Program-made: the position numbers and the translations under genes
Notes under the pieces: generated by a model
Told to the model about the DNA's origin: nothing
The model's database searches: none
What the model saw: the letters and a program-made list of their open reading frames with translations, nothing else
From: Archaeoglobus veneficus SNP6
GTDB lineage: Archaea; Halobacteriota; Archaeoglobi; Archaeoglobales; Archaeoglobaceae
Length of the DNA: 64,000 nt
Assembly: GCF_000194625.1 (NCBI RefSeq)
Contig: NC_015320.1
Coordinates: 620,001 to 684,000 of the forward strand
Direction of reading: 5' to 3'
Part shown: in pieces, positions 26,971-49,770 of the stretch
How positions within the stretch are numbered: the first letter of the stretch is position 1
Layout of the letters: each line of letters starts with the position of its first letter

Positions 26971-27044
26971 GGGCCCGGACCGGGATTCGAACCCGGCTCC
27001 TGGGATCCACAGTCCCAGAGGATAACCTCTACCCCATCCGGGCC
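26971..27044 (-). tRNA. tRNA-His (anticodon GTG)
   Basis: The acceptor arms GGCCCGG (27044-27038) and CCGGGCC (26978-26972) pair fully. The discriminator is C at 26971, as required for tRNA-His. The anticodon stem TGGGA/TCCCA encloses the loop CTGTGGA, giving GTG. The T arm CCGGGTTCGAATCCCGG is canonical. Position -1 is T in the DNA, so the identity nucleotide G-1 is not encoded and would have to be added after transcription. CCA is not encoded. Decayed genes lie directly beyond its 3' end. Confidence 0.95.
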
Positions 27045-27214: not shown

Positions 27215-27242
27215 GTTGAAATCCGACTAATGTAGGTTGAAA
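27215..27242 (+). repeat. Solitary CRISPR-repeat-like sequence
   Basis: A 28-base sequence matches the 30-base array repeat of this window with one substitution (A to C at position 10) and one deleted base near position 23. It begins GTTGAAATCCGACTAATG and ends GGTTGAAA. No second copy lies nearby, so it is not an array. It is about 18 kb from the array and in the same orientation. It may be a relic of a lost array or a single-guide element such as the CreA type. Confidence 0.8.
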
Positions 27243-27319
27243 CGAACACGCTAAAATATAGTCAAACACAGACGTGTAAGACTTCAGACGTGAACTACAT
27301 ACATGCAACAAAAATCAAA

Positions 27320-36838: not shown

Positions 36839-39049
36839 TTAAATTATCCCTATCTCATTACAAACTTCATCCATAAGCCCAGTTTCATGACTGTACTTGA
36901 GATTTGCAATAATTATTCTGTGATCCCTATCATACCAGAAGATCTCTCCAAATTTATCCTGCAAGGCATAAAACTTCCAGTAAGGGAGCGGGACCAAGTA
37001 TCGGTGAACCTCAATTCCTCTTCCGCTTTTAATTAATCTAACGGCCTTATCTGCAAATCTTACTGGGACAACTTCCAAACCCTGAAACATTCTGTAAAAC
37101 TGGTGTTCACTTTCAGTCTTTTTAAGTGGTTGCAGATCTTCAAAAAGTTCGAGAGCAGTGAGTCTGTGCTCTTCTATTTCTTTGACAAGTTGGCTCTTTA
37201 TTTTGGAGTAGGCCTCACTTACAAGGTTGGGGATAAGCGATTCCTTGAGTTCCTGCCCATCTAAGTTCTTTAAGATTTTGATACTCTCTCTTACAACATC
37301 ATATGGTTTGTAAACGTTCTCATCTTTCTCAGAACCGTCAGTTAAAACGTAGACATCAGCTATTCTCTTTTCTTTCCATCCCTGTCGGTTTACTCTTCCA
37401 AATCGCTGAATAAGAGCATCAAGAGGTGCGGGTTCTGTCAGAATTGTCTGAAAGCTTATGTCTAGTGATACTTCAACAACCTGTGTTGCAACAACGAAAT
37501 CATAACCGTCCAAATCTCTCCTCAATTTTCTCTCAAGCTCCTCCCTATTTCCGTAGGTAAACCGGCTGTGAAGAAGCATAACGCGATAACCAAGGCTTTT
37601 AAGTCGTTTATAAACCTCAATCGCCCTATCGACAGTATTGCATGCAATTAATGCAGGTGTAAGATTTCTCTCTTTAAATTTCTCTGCAAAGCTTTGAAGG
37701 TTCTCCTCAATATTTCCCTTAACAATTTTAACGCGATGTCTTGTGAAGCGATCAGCATCCTCGCTTGGAATTTTTAGCTTCTCTGGATTCAGCAATTCAA
37801 TAAAAAGCTCCTCAATGAAGTCCGGCAGAGTTGCAGACATGATCAAAGCTTTCGTTTTGTGTTCTTTAAGTATCTCCAGCATTGCAAGAATTATTCCCAG
37901 AATATTCGGTTCATAGGCATGTATCTCATCAAAGATTAGCAAAGCATTTTTCAGCTCACTTAGCGTCATTTCGAAGAACCCAACACCGAAAAATGCCTTC
38001 ATTATCTGGAATGGCGTTGTTACTTTTAAGGGTGTGAATATTTTTTGATAGAGACTTGAGAGGCGCTTATATTCAAAATTTGAAGCGTAGAGATAGTAGG
38101 ATGATGAACTATGTAAAACACCAACTAACTCCGGACTTTTAAAATATTCCAGCATTCTGTCATACATTGCATTAATGCTTGCCTTATACGGTAAAACATA
38201 GAAAATTCTGTTGGAAACTCCTCTTTTGGTTGAATGACTATTAGCGTCTGCCCACAAAAGAGCACTCTCAGTCTTCCCATATCCAGTGGGTGCCCTGAGA
38301 AGGAGATTTCCTTTAATTTGATTTGCCTGTTTCTGCAAAGGTCTCCACTCTTCTCTTGGAATTCTGAACGCAATAACCTCGGCTATAAATGGAAGAAGTC
38401 TTACTGAGTTCTCACCTGCAGATGACAGATGATCACATGCATTCAGCAACCCTTTGAGAAAAATTAGCTCTTCTTTGTATTTTTCCCAATTTCGATCATA
38501 CCAATTTAGCAGTCCATCGAAATTATATTCCTTAATTCCCTTTTTCCAGTCATCAGAGAGCTTAAACTTTCCGATAGTCTTGCCAAAAACATAGATCTCC
38601 CAGTATGGGATTTTTGGCATGAAAACTTCTTCAACATAGTCAGAATTTTCAAGGAGTTCATCAACTCTCTCAAGATAGCTCATCCATACGAATTCTTCGG
38701 CTTTAGTTGGTACCGGAAGGTCATTCAAGTATCTGTGGTGGGTCAAAATTGCAAGAGCAATCAAATTTCTTTCTTCCTCGACACAATCCAAAAACTGTGT
38801 AAATGCTGTTGAAAGGATCTCATGTCTGTATCCCCAGATTTCTCCTTTTGCTCCAGCTCTCTGAAAACCAACTGAACACTTGCCAAGATCATGCAAAAGA
38901 ATGGAGTAAAAAAGAAGCTCCCAGAAATTTTTGCGTATTTCAGAAATCCACGGAAATGCAGTTTTTATACTCTTCATCACATTAAGAGCATCATTGACAT
39001 GGCATTCGAGAAAATCGTTGGGGTTAAACTTTGCCATGCAGACCTTCAT
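36839..39049 (-). CDS. cas3: CRISPR-associated nuclease-helicase Cas3
   Basis: Cas3 is recruited by Cascade to target DNA and degrades it with its HD nuclease while unwinding it. In this 736-residue protein the HD domain comes first (ECHVNDAL with H17, then LLHDLGK with H53-D54, later 'RHEILS' and 'THHRY'). A superfamily 2 helicase follows, with Walker A 'APTGYGKTESA' (about residues 255-265), DEIH box 'LIFDEIHAYEP' (about 365), 'SATLPDF', and the C-terminal motif 'QRFGRVNRQG'. ATG 39037 (residue 5) is an alternative start. It overlaps cas5 by 26 bases and is the last gene of the effector operon. Confidence 0.95.
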   Translation of the reverse strand: MKVCMAKFNPNDFLECHVNDALNVMKSIKTAFPWISEIRKNFWELLFYSILLHDLGKCSVGFQRAGAKGEIWGYRHEILSTAFTQFLDCVEEERNLIALAILTHHRYLNDLPVPTKAEEFVWMSYLERVDELLENSDYVEEVFMPKIPYWEIYVFGKTIGKFKLSDDWKKGIKEYNFDGLLNWYDRNWEKYKEELIFLKGLLNACDHLSSAGENSVRLLPFIAEVIAFRIPREEWRPLQKQANQIKGNLLLRAPTGYGKTESALLWADANSHSTKRGVSNRIFYVLPYKASINAMYDRMLEYFKSPELVGVLHSSSSYYLYASNFEYKRLSSLYQKIFTPLKVTTPFQIMKAFFGVGFFEMTLSELKNALLIFDEIHAYEPNILGIILAMLEILKEHKTKALIMSATLPDFIEELFIELLNPEKLKIPSEDADRFTRHRVKIVKGNIEENLQSFAEKFKERNLTPALIACNTVDRAIEVYKRLKSLGYRVMLLHSRFTYGNREELERKLRRDLDGYDFVVATQVVEVSLDISFQTILTEPAPLDALIQRFGRVNRQGWKEKRIADVYVLTDGSEKDENVYKPYDVVRESIKILKNLDGQELKESLIPNLVSEAYSKIKSQLVKEIEEHRLTALELFEDLQPLKKTESEHQFYRMFQGLEVVPVRFADKAVRLIKSGRGIEVHRYLVPLPYWKFYALQDKFGEIFWYDRDHRIIIANLKYSHETGLMDEVCNEIGII

Positions 39050-39671
39050 AGAGCCATACTCCGATGTCTATTTCGGGGTCGTAAGGAAGCTTACCATTGT
39101 ATGTTTGTCGCTTTCTTTGAGCTAAATTTCTGGGAAAAGGCAGAATAGTAAATGGTTTTACTATTTTTGCTCTTCTTGGTGTCGTTGAGTAATCAAATTC
39201 CACTGGAAGTGCATGAACCAAACCCGGCAAACCTGAAGCTATTGGAACAATAGTTCCTCCAACAGGAACATTCGCCCTTTCTTTAAGCTCGATCTTCTCT
39301 ATCTTTTCTACTGTGGCTATGTCGCTTGAACGTCCAAGCAACAATTGAAATTTCGGCTTTCTGAAGTATTTTTCCCATTCGTCAGGCAGGTAAAGATGAA
39401 GGGTGTTGTCGAACAACACCTCTCGCCTTATTACATCAGTTTCAGTTTTCCCCAAGGCATAGATTCTTTCAAGATCTACTCCTTTACCCTCACTCTTGAA
39501 GACATATCCAACGAATGGAATTTCGCTGAAAGACGCTATTTCGCCTCTTGCCGCTGACAATATGCCCTGAATTGTCGAGAGCGGAGGGACTGGTAAGGTG
39601 GGCTGATAGCCTGACTGGAATGTGGGATATCTAAAGCTTGCAGTCCAGCTTTTTATTTTTACTCGTATCAT
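39024..39671 (-). CDS. cas5: Cascade subunit Cas5 (type I-B)
   Basis: Cas5 caps the 5' handle of the crRNA in Cascade. The 215-residue protein starts with the Cas5 signature strand (MIRVKIKSWTASFRYPTF), followed by 'QPTLPVPPLSTIQGILSAA' (about 23-41), the conserved loop and helix of the RAMP fold. It lies 3 bases after cas7 and overlaps cas3, the usual order cas6-cas8-cas7-cas5-cas3 of the Tneap-like I-B group. Cas6 is present as a separate protein, so Cas5 is unlikely to process pre-crRNA here. Confidence 0.92.
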   Translation of the reverse strand: MIRVKIKSWTASFRYPTFQSGYQPTLPVPPLSTIQGILSAARGEIASFSEIPFVGYVFKSEGKGVDLERIYALGKTETDVIRREVLFDNTLHLYLPDEWEKYFRKPKFQLLLGRSSDIATVEKIEKIELKERANVPVGGTIVPIASGLPGLVHALPVEFDYSTTPRRAKIVKPFTILPFPRNLAQRKRQTYNGKLPYDPEIDIGVWLYEGLHGKV

Positions 39672-39674
39672 AGA

Positions 39675-42186
<2,512 letters not shown>

Positions 42187-42190
<4 letters not shown>

Positions 42191-42909
42191 ACCACCTTCA
42201 CCATCCCGAAACCCATGCTGTTGCGTTCCCCAAACCCCGCCTTATACCCGACTTCCAGCAATTCCTTACTCCCCTCAGCCTCAAAAACCATCAGAGAAGC
42301 GCGGTGAAACGTATTCTTGAGCTGAACCCTTACTGGCTTCGAACTTACTACCCTAACCCGAAGTTCATCATCCTTCGGCTCTCTGCCATAAAACGCCACG
42401 TATTTCTTAACCAGATTCTTCCTCAAATTCTCGTAAAACTTCGGGTTGTTGGGATACAGATCAACGGTTTTCTTCCGCCCGTTTTCTTCCACGGTGGTAA
42501 CGTTAATCGGAGACAGCGTTACGAACTTCTCTCTTTTACCCACTTCTTTCTCCTTCATCACATTTATTTCCGACACGACAAACTCCGTGCCTCCAATCTT
42601 AACTTCGGGCTTCTCCAGCAGTCCTTCGATGAGAGCGACACCAACATACTTCCGCATGGTCGAAAAGAAGAAATGGACGTTTGGGTTCAGCAGCCTCATC
42701 CTCCCGTTTTCAATCCTAAACTTTCGCCCCTCCACCATCAATCTGCTGAACGTGAAGAACTTGAACTGCGATGGAGTATGCAATTCCAGAGAAAGTTCTG
42801 GATCGGCCCTCTCAATAGCTCTGTAGATCATAGAGGCGAGATGGTATGAATGGTTAAAATCGATGTATGCAGGATCCGAGCAGGCTGTTAAACCAATCCG
42901 CAGCCGCAC
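42187..42909 (-). CDS. cas6: Pre-crRNA endonuclease Cas6
   Basis: Cas6 cuts the CRISPR transcript inside each repeat and leaves an 8-base 5' handle, predicted here to be the last 8 bases of the repeat (ATTGAAAG). The 240-residue protein has two ferredoxin-like folds and ends with the family's Gly-rich loop 'GYKAGFGERNSMGFGMVKV' (about residues 220-238). A histidine near residue 24 or 28-32 (FNHSYHLASM) is the likely catalytic residue. It heads the effector operon; the 108-base gap upstream contains an AT-rich promoter candidate (AAACTTATAAAAC on the minus strand, about 42990-43002). Confidence 0.93.
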
Positions 42910-43017
42910 ACGTTTTTTGCTGTCTTAATTTTACTTAAAATTTTTGAGTGGTGCGAAAGTGAACTAATTTTAAAAAAGCTATGTATTTTGTTTTATAAGT
43001 TTAAAATGTAAACTGAA

Positions 43018-43281
43018 TCATATTATCTCACTGCTGCAACTCTTGTCGATGCCGAGAACGTCCTTCTTTAGACTCCTGTTGCTTGGCAGGCGGTATATCA
43101 CTACCATGTCTTCACTGCCATCGATTATGTCACTAAGTCCGAGCTTCACTTCCTCCAAATCCGCCTCGCTTAGCTCACCCTCAAACACAGAGTTCTGGAT
43201 CCACGTGAGATATCGTCGCAGGAACTTCTTAACCTGGTTGACCCTCTCCACGTTCACGTCGTAGACTATGATAACGTACAC
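43018..43281 (-). CDS. cas2: Spacer-acquisition protein Cas2
   Basis: Cas2 is the central dimer of the Cas1-Cas2 integrase. The 87-residue product from GTG 43281 begins VYVIIVYDVN, the family's first strand with its acidic residue, and continues with 'RRYLTWIQNSVFEGEL' (about residues 22-37), also conserved. I prefer GTG 43281 to ATG 43302, because GCAGGTGGT lies at the right distance upstream and the protein then starts as Cas2 normally does. It follows cas1 by 38 bases. An AT-rich gap after its stop separates the adaptation genes from the effector operon. Confidence 0.93.
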   Translation of the reverse strand: MYVIIVYDVNVERVNQVKKFLRRYLTWIQNSVFEGELSEADLEEVKLGLSDIIDGSEDMVVIYRLPSNRSLKKDVLGIDKSCSSEII

Positions 43282-43319
43282 GCTACCACCTGCGTGTTTC
43301 ACAACTCATTGTCCACCCG

Positions 43320-44312
43320 CTACCACCACATAACGAAGGGAGAGTACTTTTCAACGCCAAGCAAATGTTTTGCGAGCTTGTAGCACTCGAGCCTTATGAG
43401 TCGCTGATAAGAAACGTTTCTGTTGAGCTTTCTGTGCTTTATTGTCGTGTTCAATTTATCATTGTAAGCTTTCAGGAACTTCTCCTTTCCGCTCTCGCTA
43501 AGCAGAACTCCATTGAGCTCCTCCCTGAAATCGTCATTCTTAATCACACCTTTGTTTACAAGCCCGAAAATCGTCCTGTCAACGATCAGTGGCTTGAATA
43601 TCTCCGCTATATCGAGAGCGAGACTGAATCGTCTTTCTGAGGGCTCATGAAGATATGAAATCGTTGGATTAAGCTGGGTATGGTATATTTCGGAGAGGAC
43701 AGTTGAGTAAAGCAGCGCGTTACCGAAGCTTATCATTGCATTCACCTCGTTGTGCGGCGGTCTCCTGCTTCTCCTTTCGAACTCGAAGTTTCGCAGTATC
43801 GAGTCGAAGGCTGAGTAGTATGCGTTCCTGGCGTTTGCTTCCACGCCCATTACCTCGTTCACGGTTTCTGCAGTCAGAAGGCTCTGCAGAGCATCATCAA
43901 CTTCCTTCTTCGCGTCTTCTTCTTTGTAATAGGCCAGAACTCTGGACATGTTGAGAATTGCTCCCTCAACAAAGGCCTTTGCCAGAAATAGTCTTTTCTC
44001 TTTATCGATGTAATGCTCAACCTGCCTGACGAGCACATCTCCCGAAACGAGAGTCTCTCGTGGATAAAAGCTACCAACGTAGAATCCGGAGCGGTTGAAG
44101 AAGTGAACGCACACACCTTCTTTTGCCAGTGTTGAAAGGGCTGGAGATGTGACGGTGAGAGAGCCAAGGGCGTAAATGGCGTATATCGAATTGATGGGTA
44201 TTGGTCTCTTTCCTTCCTCGTTCTCGAAGTATATCGTGTTTTCGTGCCTCCTCAGCTTCCCGTCCGAGACTATGTAGTAGTTCCTCTTCTTCAAAACCAT
44301 CACCTGCGACAC
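43320..44312 (-). CDS. cas1: CRISPR integrase Cas1 (type I-B)
   Basis: Cas1 is the metal-dependent integrase that inserts new spacers at the leader end. The 330-residue protein has an N-terminal beta domain and a helical catalytic domain. Expected metal-binding residues are E158 (GVEANARN), H222 (YLHEPSERR) and an acidic residue at D234 or E237 (LALDIAEIF). The gene begins with GTG directly after the cas4 stop; ATG 44300 is an alternative start. It forms an adaptation cassette with cas4 and cas2. Confidence 0.96.
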
Positions 44313-44819
44313 TTATGAAAAACAGAACTCAAAGTACGCGCACCTCCTACAGATTTTCTTTTTCTCCGGTTTTGGGATGCCTCCGGCAACGATTTCATCT
44401 ATTTCCTTCACGATATTCTTCAACTTCTCCTCATCCTCTCCACTGAGCTCCAGCTTGATGGTTTCTCTATGTTTTGGATACGTCAGAACAGCTCTGGCTT
44501 TAATCCCGAGGGTCTTGAGGAAGTATAGGTAGTAGAGAGTCTGGTAAACGTGAGACTCCTCCATCTTTTTGGACTTCTTCACTTCTCTTATTTCAATCAC
44601 GTCTCCCCGCTTCACCACATCTATGGCAATTGGGCCGATTTGAACATCTTTTTCGTCTCTTGAAAAGACCTCTCTGTGGATGAGCTTTCCAAGCTTAACA
44701 GCATCACTTTCTTGCTCCATCGTTACATTGTGGCTGAAAAGCCAAAGTTTCGTCTTGCAAATGAAATAATAGTTAACCTGCGTACCACGCACGTACATCT
44801 CGGAAACTTCCGAAATCAC
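44313..44819 (-). CDS. cas4: PAM-selecting nuclease Cas4
   Basis: Cas4 trims prespacers and helps to select PAM and orientation. The 168-residue protein has the iron-sulfur cysteines of the family: one near residue 21 (YFICKTKLW) and a C-terminal CRRCAYFEFC. RecB-like nuclease residues appear in 'IEIREVKKSKKMEE' and 'QTLYYLYFL' (QxxxY). The longest frame starts at GTG 44819, about 27 bases from a TATA box (GGTTATACGG, about 44841-44850), consistent with a leaderless message. ATG 44798 (MYVRGTQVNYYF) is the alternative favoured by homologues. A perfect inverted repeat lies between these two starts. Confidence 0.93.
   Translation of the reverse strand: MISEVSEMYVRGTQVNYYFICKTKLWLFSHNVTMEQESDAVKLGKLIHREVFSRDEKDVQIGPIAIDVVKRGDVIEIREVKKSKKMEESHVYQTLYYLYFLKTLGIKARAVLTYPKHRETIKLELSGEDEEKLKNIVKEIDEIVAGGIPKPEKKKICRRCAYFEFCFS
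44800..44813. promoter_or_regulatory. Inverted repeat at the start of the cas4-cas1-cas2 transcript
   Basis: The palindrome TCGGAA-AC-TTCCGA occupies 44800-44813, about 35-45 bases downstream of the cas4 TATA box and just before ATG 44798. Perfect 6-base arms with a 2-base centre are typical of a dimeric transcription-factor site. It could be an operator for the adaptation genes; no known regulator gene lies in the locus. Confidence 0.4.
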
Positions 44820-45146
44820 AAGTTTGATTTGTTTCTCTCACCGTATAACCTTTTCTCCATCCATCGTCCATCTTTTAATCTGCTGTTAATATTGATTAAA
44901 CTTTTGATTTTTATTTGGTTCTTTTAGGCTACTGAGGATGGAATGGACGTTGTTTTGAATCATCCCCTTTGTATTTTGATTTTTATCGATTTACATTTGA
45001 ATAATCTGGATTCTATGAGAAAGAGGTCGAATCCGTGGATCGTCCACCTTTTTAAAGAGTTTGCACAACTGAAGGTGGGCGATTCGGGATTGCCATAGCA
45101 GCCTTCAGAAACCTTTAAATTACCATTCAGGAGAAAATTACCGAGT
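44820..45146 (+). promoter_or_regulatory. CRISPR leader
   Basis: The 327-base AT-rich gap between cas4 and the first repeat contains no plausible gene. The array's degenerate repeat is at the far end, so this side is the leader. ACCTTTAAATTACC (about 45110-45123) is a TATA candidate some 25-30 bases before the first repeat and would drive the plus-strand precursor. An inverted repeat GTGGA-TCG-TCCAC (about 45034-45046) followed by a T-run lies mid-leader and may be a protein site. The cas4 promoter occupies the opposite end. Confidence 0.75.
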
Positions 45147-48100
45147 GTTGAAATCAGACTAATGTAGGATTGAAAGGAGATTTCCCCTTTCAATCCTCAT
45201 CCTCATCTATCTCCCGTTGAAATCAGACTAATGTAGGATTGAAAGCTGCGACGTATCAAGAGTCTTTCCGTTAGCCGTTTCATGTTGAAATCAGACTAAT
45301 GTAGGATTGAAAGGCACAGAAAATTGAGTGCTGGAGAGGATGCAAAAAAATGTTGAAATCAGACTAATGTAGGATTGAAAGATCGGGGAGGGAGATTAGG
45401 ATGGATATAGAGTGTCTAGTTGAAATCAGACTAATGTAGGATTGAAAGGAGTTCTTTGGCAGAGATAAGTTCAGTAAGGTTATCTCAAGTTGAAATCAGA
45501 CTAATGTAGGATTGAAAGGCGCTATTCTTTTACTTCTCGCAATGCGGTAATCAATGGTTGAAATCAGACTAATGTAGGATTGAAAGAAGCGCTTGGCTGC
45601 TTACTGCGTGGCTCAGTACTGCGCGTTGAAATCAGACTAATGTAGGATTGAAAGGAGGTGGTTAGAGACATCTTGAATAAAATGATGGGCAAGTTGAAAT
45701 CAGACTAATGTAGGATTGAAAGCTTATTGACTTCTTCAATTCTCCCTTTTAGATATAGATGTTGAAATCAGACTAATGTAGGATTGAAAGGCATAACAGA
45801 GTGCGCCCTCCGTGCCTCCCGTTCCGTGTTGAAATCAGACTAATGTAGGATTGAAAGATGGGGGAACTGGCTCGAACTCGCTGATTTCTTCGAAGAGTTG
45901 AAATCAGACTAATGTAGGATTGAAAGCAAATTAGCAAGGGCTACAACGATACCATCATACGGAGTTGAAATCAGACTAATGTAGGATTGAAAGATCAACA
46001 TCGGTCCGGGACAATATCAGTTCAAGGCGAGGTTGAAATCAGACTAATGTAGGATTGAAAGCTATGAGTACTGTAAAAGGAATTTAAATTTAAAATAGGG
46101 TTGAAATCAGACTAATGTAGGATTGAAAGTTCTAATGCCGTGAAGTATGCTCTTTTTGCTTCGGGAGGTTGAAATCAGACTAATGTAGGATTGAAAGGAT
46201 TGTGGCGGTGATTTGGTGGACTTAGGCAACAATGAGTTGAAATCAGACTAATGTAGGATTGAAAGTACTTCAGACAATACAATATCCCAATCGAACAACA
46301 CAGTTGAAATCAGACTAATGTAGGATTGAAAGACGGTGAACGTTGATCATCCTTTGATTGTCTTGCTGGTTGTTGAAATCAGACTAATGTAGGATTGAAA
46401 GTGTCCATCAAAAGGCCTAACGGAGGATGAGGTTCAAGAGTTGAAATCAGACTAATGTAGGATTGAAAGTTCCCACTTGATGATACCCTGACCTTCATTC
46501 TTTTCGAGTTGAAATCAGACTAATGTAGGATTGAAAGTTGTGGTATAATTAATAGTTCTCATCTGCCATTTTTTATGTTGAAATCAGACTAATGTAGGAT
46601 TGAAAGGCTCGCAAGGAAATGCTGAACGGAAATAGGCACACCGTTGAAATCAGACTAATGTAGGATTGAAAGACTCTTTCACCTCCTAACAGCTTTTTTC
46701 TATATACTGTCACTGGTTGAAATCAGACTAATGTAGGATTGAAAGTCTATACCACCTCAAAAAATGTTTAAGGAAGCAGAATCTGTTGAAATCAGACTAA
46801 TGTAGGATTGAAAGTTTGGGGTAACTGGCTTGAGCTTGCAGACTTCTTAGAGGTTGAAATCAGACTAATGTAGGATTGAAAGGCGAGCATGAACGGGAAC
46901 TGCACGAATCCGCGGGCTCCCGTTGAAATCAGACTAATGTAGGATTGAAAGATAGCTGCAAAAATCTTTTGCATCCCTGCAAGTCCCCTTGTTGAAATCA
47001 GACTAATGTAGGATTGAAAGGCAAATAATCTATAAACTGTCTCGCTAAGTCGAAAGCGTTGAAATCAGACTAATGTAGGATTGAAAGCTCGAGTTCCCTG
47101 CTCATCCTGCTATATCTCTCAAAAATGTTGAAATCAGACTAATGTAGGATTGAAAGAGGATTACAGCCGGAATCCTCAGCCAGCCGACGAAGTAGAGTTG
47201 AAATCAGACTAATGTAGGATTGAAAGAGATTGCCCCCCTCAGCATGGCGGGGGACATTCGCGAGTTGAAATCAGACTAATGTAGGATTGAAAGTATTGTC
47301 AACCTTTTAATTCGCTCTTTCAATGCCCTAAAGTTGAAATCAGACTAATGTAGGATTGAAAGTAGAGGAATGGGAAATTCTGGGGAAGGATGACGAAAAA
47401 GTTGAAATCAGACTAATGTAGGATTGAAAGCTAAGAAGGCTTATAGTTGAGCACAGACACTTGGATTTAGTTGAAATCAGACTAATGTAGGATTGAAAGT
47501 AGGGGGGAGGTAGATGAGGATTGAAAGAGGGAATCTCAGTTGAAATCAGACTAATGTAGGATTGAAAGGAGAAGAGCTGACGTTCACTGAAGAGGACGGA
47601 AACAACGTTGAAATCAGACTAATGTAGGATTGAAAGCTGGGGTAACTTTCCGAAGTTCAAATGCAGGCATGAACTGTTGAAATCAGACTAATGTAGGATT
47701 GAAAGGATTCTAAGTTAAAATAGATGGGTTGAATAAAAAAAGGTTGAAATCAGACTAATGTAGGATTGAAAGGGACATGGGGCAATAAGCAGCCATTCAG
47801 CCCAGAGCCATCTGTTGAAATCAGACTAATGTAGGATTGAAAGATAGAGTTCTATGTTGTAGTATGTTCCTGCAGAGAGATCGTTGAAATCAGACTAATG
47901 TAGGATTGAAAGCATGCTCTTGCTGAGCCATAGCCAAGCCCATGAAGCGGGTTGAAATCAGACTAATGTAGGATTGAAAGACGTAGATTTGACATTCTCA
48001 GCGGGCGCAACGAGGCAGGTTGAAATCAGACTAATGTAGGATTGAAAGTTACATATATCTACAAAAGCTGCACAATCTGCAGCATCGTTGAAATCAGACT

Positions 48101-49770
48101 AATGTAGGATTGAAAGAATAAGAGCGGGCGAGTATGGCGACATGAGCGAGGCAAGTTGAAATCAGACTAATGTAGGATTGAAAGCTTCGAATGGGATAAG
48201 GGCTTAGAGGATTTGGCCGAATGGGAGTTGAAATCAGACTAATGTAGGATTGAAAGCATGCTGAAAACTACATTGTCTTCAAGGGCGTTTCTTATGTTGA
48301 AATCAGACTAATGTAGGATTGAAAGAATCCTGTGACAGTGCAACGTATTACTTTACTATTCATGTTGAAATCAGACTAATGTAGGATTGAAAGGACTCTG
48401 TGTGTGAGGTGGTGGTAGAGATGGAGCAAAAGTTGAAATCAGACTAATGTAGGATTGAAAGTTTTGAGAAAATAAGACGTATAAACCTTTGTAACAATGG
48501 TTGAAATCAGACTAATGTAGGATTGAAAGAAATTCCTCGGACGGGATAAGTTCAGCAAAGTTATCGCGTTGAAATCAGACTAATGTAGGATTGAAAGGTT
48601 TGATGTGCGAATGTGGATACTCGAAGAGGTATGTTGTTGAAATCAGACTAATGTAGGATTGAAAGTTGAACCATATCTCGTTCTGAGGGAAACTCATCTG
48701 AACGTTGAAATCAGACTAATGTAGGATTGAAAGGTTCCAGCCTGTGATAATAAAAAGCACCACAGCACCGAGTTGAAATCAGACTAATGTAGGATTGAAA
48801 GACATAAATCATTATCCTGTCGAAGTTTCAGATTATTTGGTTGAAATCAGACTAATGTAGGATTGAAAGGATATACCATCAACTGAATTACCTGAATTGC
48901 CATTAACAGTTGAAATCAGACTAATGTAGGATTGAAAGGTTGCGTATGCGCCCAGATATGGTACGAACTGTTCAAAAGTTGAAATCAGACTAATGTAGGA
49001 TTGAAAGCGCTGGGACGATAATCAGACTTGTAAACGCTGATGCTACGTTGAAATCAGACTAATGTAGGATTGAAAGCGCTGATACAGCTTCAGCGGAGTC
49101 ATACGCTTAATCCTGTTGAAATCAGACTAATGTAGGATTGAAAGTTCTATTTCTCGTCCGATATCCCTACTGTAGTGTCTTAGTTGAAATCAGACTAATG
49201 TAGGATTGAAAGAATTTATTGGGCCGATGGCAACACGCCCAGCTGAGCTTGTTGAAATCAGACTAATGTAGGATTGAAAGTTTTGTCCCGCTGAGCACGT
49301 GCACGCTGCGAATGATTGGTTGAAATCAGACTAATGTAGGATTGAAAGTTCATTCTCTCTTTCAATCTCAGCAATCTTACTCATTAGTTGAAATCAGACT
49401 AATGTAGGATTGAAAGTACTTGCGGAGCTACTACGACAAATACGCCAAACTGCTCGTTGAAATCAGACTAATGTAGGATTGAAAGGTAGGGATTTCTTTA
49501 ATCCAGGTTTCGTCAATTGCTGCGTTGAAATCAGACTAATGTAGGATTGAAAGACATCTGAATCTTCGAATACCTCAATGCTGTATATGCTCGCTGTGCG
49601 TTGAAATCAGACTAATGTAGGATTGAAAGAGTACCCTTTCAAGCACAATCACGGCGATATCGTCTGCAGTTGAAATCAGACTAATGTAGGATTGAAAGCT
49701 TTGTACCTCAGCATAGCTCCCACAACACCGAGCAGCCCGGGTTGAAATCAGACTAATGTAAGATTGAGAA
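45147..49770 (+). CRISPR. Type I-B CRISPR array, 68 repeats and 67 spacers
   Basis: Repeats are 30 bases, start GTTGAAATCAG and end GTAGGATTGAAAG. Repeat-to-repeat distances are 66-76 bases, giving spacers of 36-46 bases (mostly 38). My count by position is 68 repeats, the first at 45147 and the last at 49741. The last repeat is degenerate (A for G and a disturbed 3' end), which sets transcription on the plus strand, with the leader at 44820-45146. The other repeats I inspected are identical. Three spacer pairs, 1/35, 5/50 and 11/25, look homologous to each other (see findings). Frames seen across the array are artefacts of the repeats. Confidence 0.99.

Follow-up and report, generated by a model that had tools for sequence, protein, structure and literature searches.

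The described CRISPR-Cas system that comes closest to the locus treated here is type I-B (Tneap, Cas8b1/Cst1), and from Sulfolobales CRISPR spacers are known that match viruses at the amino-acid level only. The window, a stretch of 64,000 nucleotides from the genome of Archaeoglobus veneficus SNP6 (NC_015320.1, positions 620,001 to 684,000), holds a CRISPR array with 30-bp repeats and 36-46 nt spacers that is structurally nothing unusual. The cas genes beside it follow the same order as in type I-B (Tneap), cas4-cas1-cas2-cas6-cas8b1-cas7-cas5-cas3. This operon is intact and complete, as the effector signature of Cas8b together with Cas7b, Cas5b and Cas3 (PADLOC) is present, and likewise the adaptation module of cas1, cas2 and cas4, plus Cas6 (Table 1). 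Two spacers of the array, 11 and 25, are highly likely to represent the same site, copied from two diverged relatives of one invader.

Table 1. Positions of the CRISPR array, its spacers discussed in the text and the neighbouring genes in the window
Feature	Position	Strand	Description
Lone degenerate CRISPR repeat	27215-27244	+	GTTGAAATCcGACTAATGTAGGttGAAAcG
tRNA-His gene	26971-27043
Type I-B operon	36839-44819	-	adjoins the array
cas3 (HD + helicase)	36839..39049	-	PADLOC Cas3b 8e-221
cas5b	39024..39671	-	PADLOC I-B/TNEAP 8e-57
cas7b	39675..40736	-	PADLOC I-B/TNEAP 5e-79
cas8b1 (Cst1)	40733..42190	-	PADLOC Cas8b 4e-83; I-B/TNEAP model 8e-65
cas6	42187..42909	-	PF01881 2.2e-36
cas2	43018..43302	-	PF09827 1.8e-21
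cas1	43320..44312	-	PF01867 5.3e-95; PADLOC Cas1b
cas4	44313..44819	-	PF01930 1.2e-55; PADLOC Cas4b
Array leader region	44820..45146	+	aligns with the sequence preceding the second array of the genome
CRISPR array	45147..49770	+	68 repeats GTTGAAATCAGACTAATGTAGGATTGAAAG, 67 spacers (36-46 nt); leader end at 45147
Spacer 1	45177..45215	+	gene start in antisense (ribosome-binding site + ATG ... MRIERGNL)
Spacer 4	45382..45418	+	26/37 identities with spacer 35 at offset -1; purine-rich and weaker
Spacer 5	45449..45488	+	EFFGRDKFSKVIS; start shared with spacer 50
Spacer 11	45858..45896	+	encodes WGNWLELADFFE; begins at codon position 3
Spacer 25	46815..46852	+	encodes WGNWLELADFLE; begins one base earlier in the target, at codon position 2
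Spacer 31	47227..47263	+	IAPLSMAGDIR; pairs on the opposite strand with spacer 2 of the second array (IAPLDMAGDVSK)
Spacer 34	47431..47469	+	LRRLIVEHRHLD; matches spacer 60 (LRKLIVEHRHWD) of the related genome G149 (array L075)
Spacer 35	47500..47538	+	sense, same kind of gene start as spacer 1: GGAGGTAG ATG AGG ATT GAA AGA GGG AAT CTC
Spacer 50	48530..48567	+	KFLGRDKFSKVI
Terminal repeat of array	49741-49770		degenerate; trailer end at 49770

Lower spacer numbers would be the newer ones, because the terminal repeat starting at 49741 is degenerate and the sequence before 45147 has leader homology. The second array of the genome (G000:C1:83681-85200; L001, L111) carries a repeat one base off that of the window array (ACTATTG), and its last repeats are of the window-array version (ACTAATG), which looks like a replacement of the leader-side repeat. 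The lone degenerate repeat of the window lies 17.9 kb from the array and about 170 bp from the tRNA-His gene.

Re-translation of spacers 11 and 25 gave the shared peptide WGNWLELADF(F/L)E at the coordinates at which a preliminary description of this DNA had placed it. Read from its second base, spacer 11 is TGG GGG AAC TGG CTC GAA CTC GCT GAT TTC TTC GAA, and spacer 25, read from its third base, is TGG GGT AAC TGG CTT GAG CTT GCA GAC TTC TTA GAG. Eight of the twelve codons differ, all of them at the third base only, in agreement with that description; seven of these changes are synonymous and the remaining one (TTC/TTA) leads to an exchange of F to L. A ninth mismatch (A/T) falls on the third base of the codon preceding WGNW. 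The two spacers are offset by one base in the target, a shift missing from the earlier account, and overlap by 37 nt, 28 of which are identical, with all nine mismatches sharing one codon phase (P = 1.7e-5). Nei-Gojobori counts are 7 synonymous differences at 6.2 synonymous sites, which means saturation, and 1 nonsynonymous difference at 29.8 sites. As 67 spacers form 2,211 pairs, some resemblance between unrelated spacers is expected, but that the likeness of 11 and 25 arose by chance has a next to negligible probability. Their translated score (BLOSUM62, ungapped) is 68, against 30-37 for the top-scoring of the 2,211 pairs in each of 12 shuffled arrays, and together with the one-phase placement of the mismatches (P about 2e-5) this refutes chance short of a compositional artefact.

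The strand on which the target is coded needs separate consideration, since an antisense frame, SKKSASSSQ[F/L]P[H/Q], is open in both spacers and the same bases fall on its third positions, so that the period-3 pattern alone leaves the strand unfixed. A codon-based likelihood with purifying selection (omega 0.02-0.2) favoured the plus frame 25-380 fold over the antisense frame, because both Trp codons are unchanged and just one change is nonsynonymous. The antisense reading would require two nonsynonymous changes, and the two Trp codons that stayed the same encode the sole single-codon residues of the plus frame; coding on the other strand is therefore very improbable. Thus, purifying selection on a protein-coding target, as proposed earlier, is well supported by seven of eight changes being synonymous and by the preference for the plus frame. 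Judged from the two spacers, the target would be a protein-coding site with a conserved (L?)WGNWLELADF(F/L)E and saturated synonymous sites, which is likewise well supported. No copy of spacer 11 or 25 was found elsewhere in the host genome with the degenerate pattern and up to 3 mismatches, and the target is accordingly not a self gene.

Other spacers of the array also recur in pairs. Spacers 5 and 50 reach a translated score of 52, which is above shuffles, and are identical at 28/38 positions at offset 0. Spacers 1 and 35 share a 25-nt match of 92% on opposite strands, with a nucleotide score of 21 against a shuffled maximum of 15. The latter pair had been grouped with 11/25 and 5/50; it is real and above shuffles, but its members lie on opposite strands over a ribosome-binding site with its start codon and, unlike the other two pairs, do not form a same-site synonymous pair. 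A third copy of this gene-start site is possibly present in spacer 4. A reading in which the repeat-like AGGATTGAAAG in spacers 1 and 35 reflects targeting of a viral mini-array was discarded in favour of the gene start (ribosome-binding site + ATG), and the resemblance of AGGATTGAAAG to the end of the repeat is regarded as coincidental. Spacer 31 and spacer 2 of the second array (L111) reach a score of 20, where shuffles attain at most 15, and overlap in a common peptide, IAPL[SD]MAGD[IV]. Spacer 34 agrees with spacer 60 of the related genome at 29/38 positions at offset 0, with a common LR[RK]LIVEHRH[LW]D, and from the shared peptide and start both hosts probably meet one element family.

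The preliminary description had suggested a motif search for one protein family hit by both spacers, and no protospacer came up in any collection searched. Strict degenerate patterns for the 11/25 protospacer had 0 matches in viral contigs (IMG/VR), where relaxed patterns gave chance-like matches only, and there was one chance match in genome contigs of 84,980 species. In 392 genomes of the phylum, allowing up to 3 mismatches, the array itself was recovered along with three chance 3-mismatch matches, one of which was checked and lies in a birA-like gene (G092). Phage and plasmid records, queried with the contiguous array of the window, were without relevant match. In viral contigs the strict and relaxed patterns of both pairs (5/50 and 11/25), the gene-start motif and spacer 34 yielded no convincing target, and in five Archaeoglobi pleomorphic viruses (BK065154-BK065158) no array match exceeded shuffles, neither as DNA nor as protein. 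An hmmscan of the padded 12-residue peptides returned nothing; STIV_B116-like control peptides also returned nothing, hence this search was powerless, and twelve residues are too short for naming a family.

Several candidates were rejected along the way. Seven matches to WGNWLE[LF] in viral contigs are chance-like: the open frames around five of them span just 18-43 codons, a sixth (L023) falls in a frame of 189 codons on a contig with 70% G+C, and the last (L024) shares the frame of a 242-aa tailed-phage protein but diverges immediately (WGNWLEFVDQ). NWIEIADF (L121-L123) belongs to a 113-codon frame in a different context, and LIVEHRHVD (L115, L117, L119, L120) to a protein conserved in other phages that lacks the flanking residues. 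The match in L014, to a Clostridiaceae regulator in another frame, is due to chance, as are those in G267 and G277. No family with the motif turned up in the public collections, and these probably under-sample vent archaeal elements, so that the absence of a protospacer there is compatible with homologues on mobile elements. Of the earlier proposal that the protospacers lie in a conserved coding gene of mobile elements, the conserved coding site thus stands, whereas a mobile origin, probable as it appears, did not gain a protospacer.

Arrays of related genomes, from which 1,058 spacers were extracted, provided a candidate PAM and positive controls. CC occupies -3,-2 for nine of their spacers with a DNA or protein match to Archaeoglobi pleomorphic viruses, which suggests a 5' CCN PAM. 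Under CCN, the codon ahead would have to be CNA for protospacer 11 and NTT for protospacer 25; Leu (CTA, CTT) is the sole preceding residue that would fit at both, and these codons would differ at the third base, as across the rest of the overlap. This fit serves as a consistency check and does not read the PAM itself. In some 632,000 spacer pairs drawn from this array and the related ones, the diverged (70-95%) same-strand pairs all have an offset of 0 or -1, which is what a PAM-anchored origin would predict.

The related arrays also hold diverged same-site spacer pairs. Spacers 12, 31 and 45 of one array (L096, G087:C8) and spacer 17 of another (L102, G122:C8) encode (V/I)Y(I/V)LN(A/S)(I/L)(V/I)PP, which is the beginning of an STIV_B116-like gene in a third genome (MLYILNALVPP; L127:1429-1725, minus strand). 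The mismatches among these spacers are concentrated at codon position 3, and L096 re-samples this gene start three times. The STIV_B116-like protein itself hit PF08960 (5.9e-5) with 23.6 bits, slightly below the cut-off of 26; the PF08960-like STIV_B116 family includes viral ring nucleases acting as anti-CRISPRs (AcrIII-1). Spacers of further arrays (L074-L078, L098, L112) match Thalassapleoviridae (L015-L019, L124-L126) by DNA, with 4 mismatches at best, or by protein. Divergence in the related-array matches to pleomorphic viruses is of the synonymous type, mostly with a 5' CCN flank. With these named targets as controls, peptide-matching spacer pairs do mark conserved mobile-element genes in these archaea.

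A single invader with paralogous genes or repeated domains might also have supplied both protospacers. Small archaeal elements often have gene families, and a spacer pair alone cannot separate orthologues from paralogues. Such paralogues would need to be old, however, given the saturated synonymous sites (7 differences / 6.2 sites), and the independent pairs (5/50, and 31 with the second array) as well as the cross-species match of spacer 34 better fit a diverse element family, which makes this origin improbable. Two diverged relatives of one invader are preferred as the source.

It had further been concluded from 11/25 together with pairs 1/35 and 5/50 that the array keeps re-acquiring sites in the same genes. 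Both further pairs are real, but repeated re-acquisition, plausible as it is, goes a step beyond them, as chance could give one or two pairs. With a single family of 1,000-2,000 PAM sites as the source of all 67 spacers, 1.1-2.2 same-site pairs would be expected, and 0.1-0.2 if just 20 spacers came from such a family; two known Archaeoglobus viruses have 1,220-1,330 CC/GG sites. Chance would therefore account for two same-strand same-site pairs only where almost the whole array derives from one small element family. These figures bear on an extended form of the preferred explanation in which site reuse has a cause of its own, namely that primed or hotspot adaptation directs spacers to the same sites, in place of random sampling and selection. 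Two same-strand pairs at the same PAM site (offsets 0, -1) in one array and the lower of the two expectations speak for such a preference, and in Haloferax volcanii, whose system is likewise of type I-B, adaptation hotspots have been documented (PMC7521656). On the other hand, the higher expectation would account for the pairs, primed spacers need only be near the priming site and not on it, and selection for conserved sites yields the same pattern, so preferred re-acquisition is possible but rather doubtful. From the array alone, hotspots, priming and conserved-site selection are indistinguishable.

For two diverged relatives of one invader, a simple course of events can be proposed. Immunity at the DNA level would track nucleotides, and synonymous drift would defeat the guide while the protein is unchanged. 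A crRNA from spacer 25 would face the element of spacer 11 with mismatches at positions 2, 8, 17, 20, 23, 26, 29, 35 and 38. Type I systems have little mismatch tolerance in the PAM-proximal octamer. With nine mismatches, two of them within the PAM-proximal 8 bases, this crRNA would be expected to give no protection. Another spacer taken from that place would then be useful, restore immunity and be retained; by the polarity of the array, spacer 11 would be this later one. A much wider reading, speculative and on balance unlikely, would take the array as the record of an unsampled Archaeoglobus mobile-element family, in which type I-B re-samples PAMs of conserved sites after each synonymous erasure and so tracks protein-conserved sites in the long term and non-randomly.

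Pairs that agree in peptide and diverge in DNA may serve as a peptide fingerprint of an unseen element, giving third-position divergence without a virus genome, and they illustrate why DNA-guided immunity may need re-immunising against relatives of a known invader. Applied to the sister arrays, the method named pleomorphic viruses and STIV_B116-like genes, and arrays alone can thus steer a search for unknown viruses.

Spacers of this sort are a familiar kind of CRISPR behaviour and not categorically new. The window array had no match to Thalassapleoviridae above shuffles although A. veneficus, its likely host, carries AvPV1. Other Archaeoglobaceae spacers, which share the repeat family, match AvPV1 and its relatives with synonymous-type divergence and 5' CCN, whereas the best matches of the window array equal shuffled controls. 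The L096 spacers over the STIV_B116-like start resemble 11/25 in that several spacers of a single array fall on the same conserved coding site and vary mostly at third positions, and differ in that their target family is named (PF08960-like). As with the amino-acid-level spacers of Sulfolobales, the peptide of 11/25 is common while third positions differ; there a spacer is compared with a virus, whereas here one spacer is compared with another within one array, and the element behind them is a putative one.
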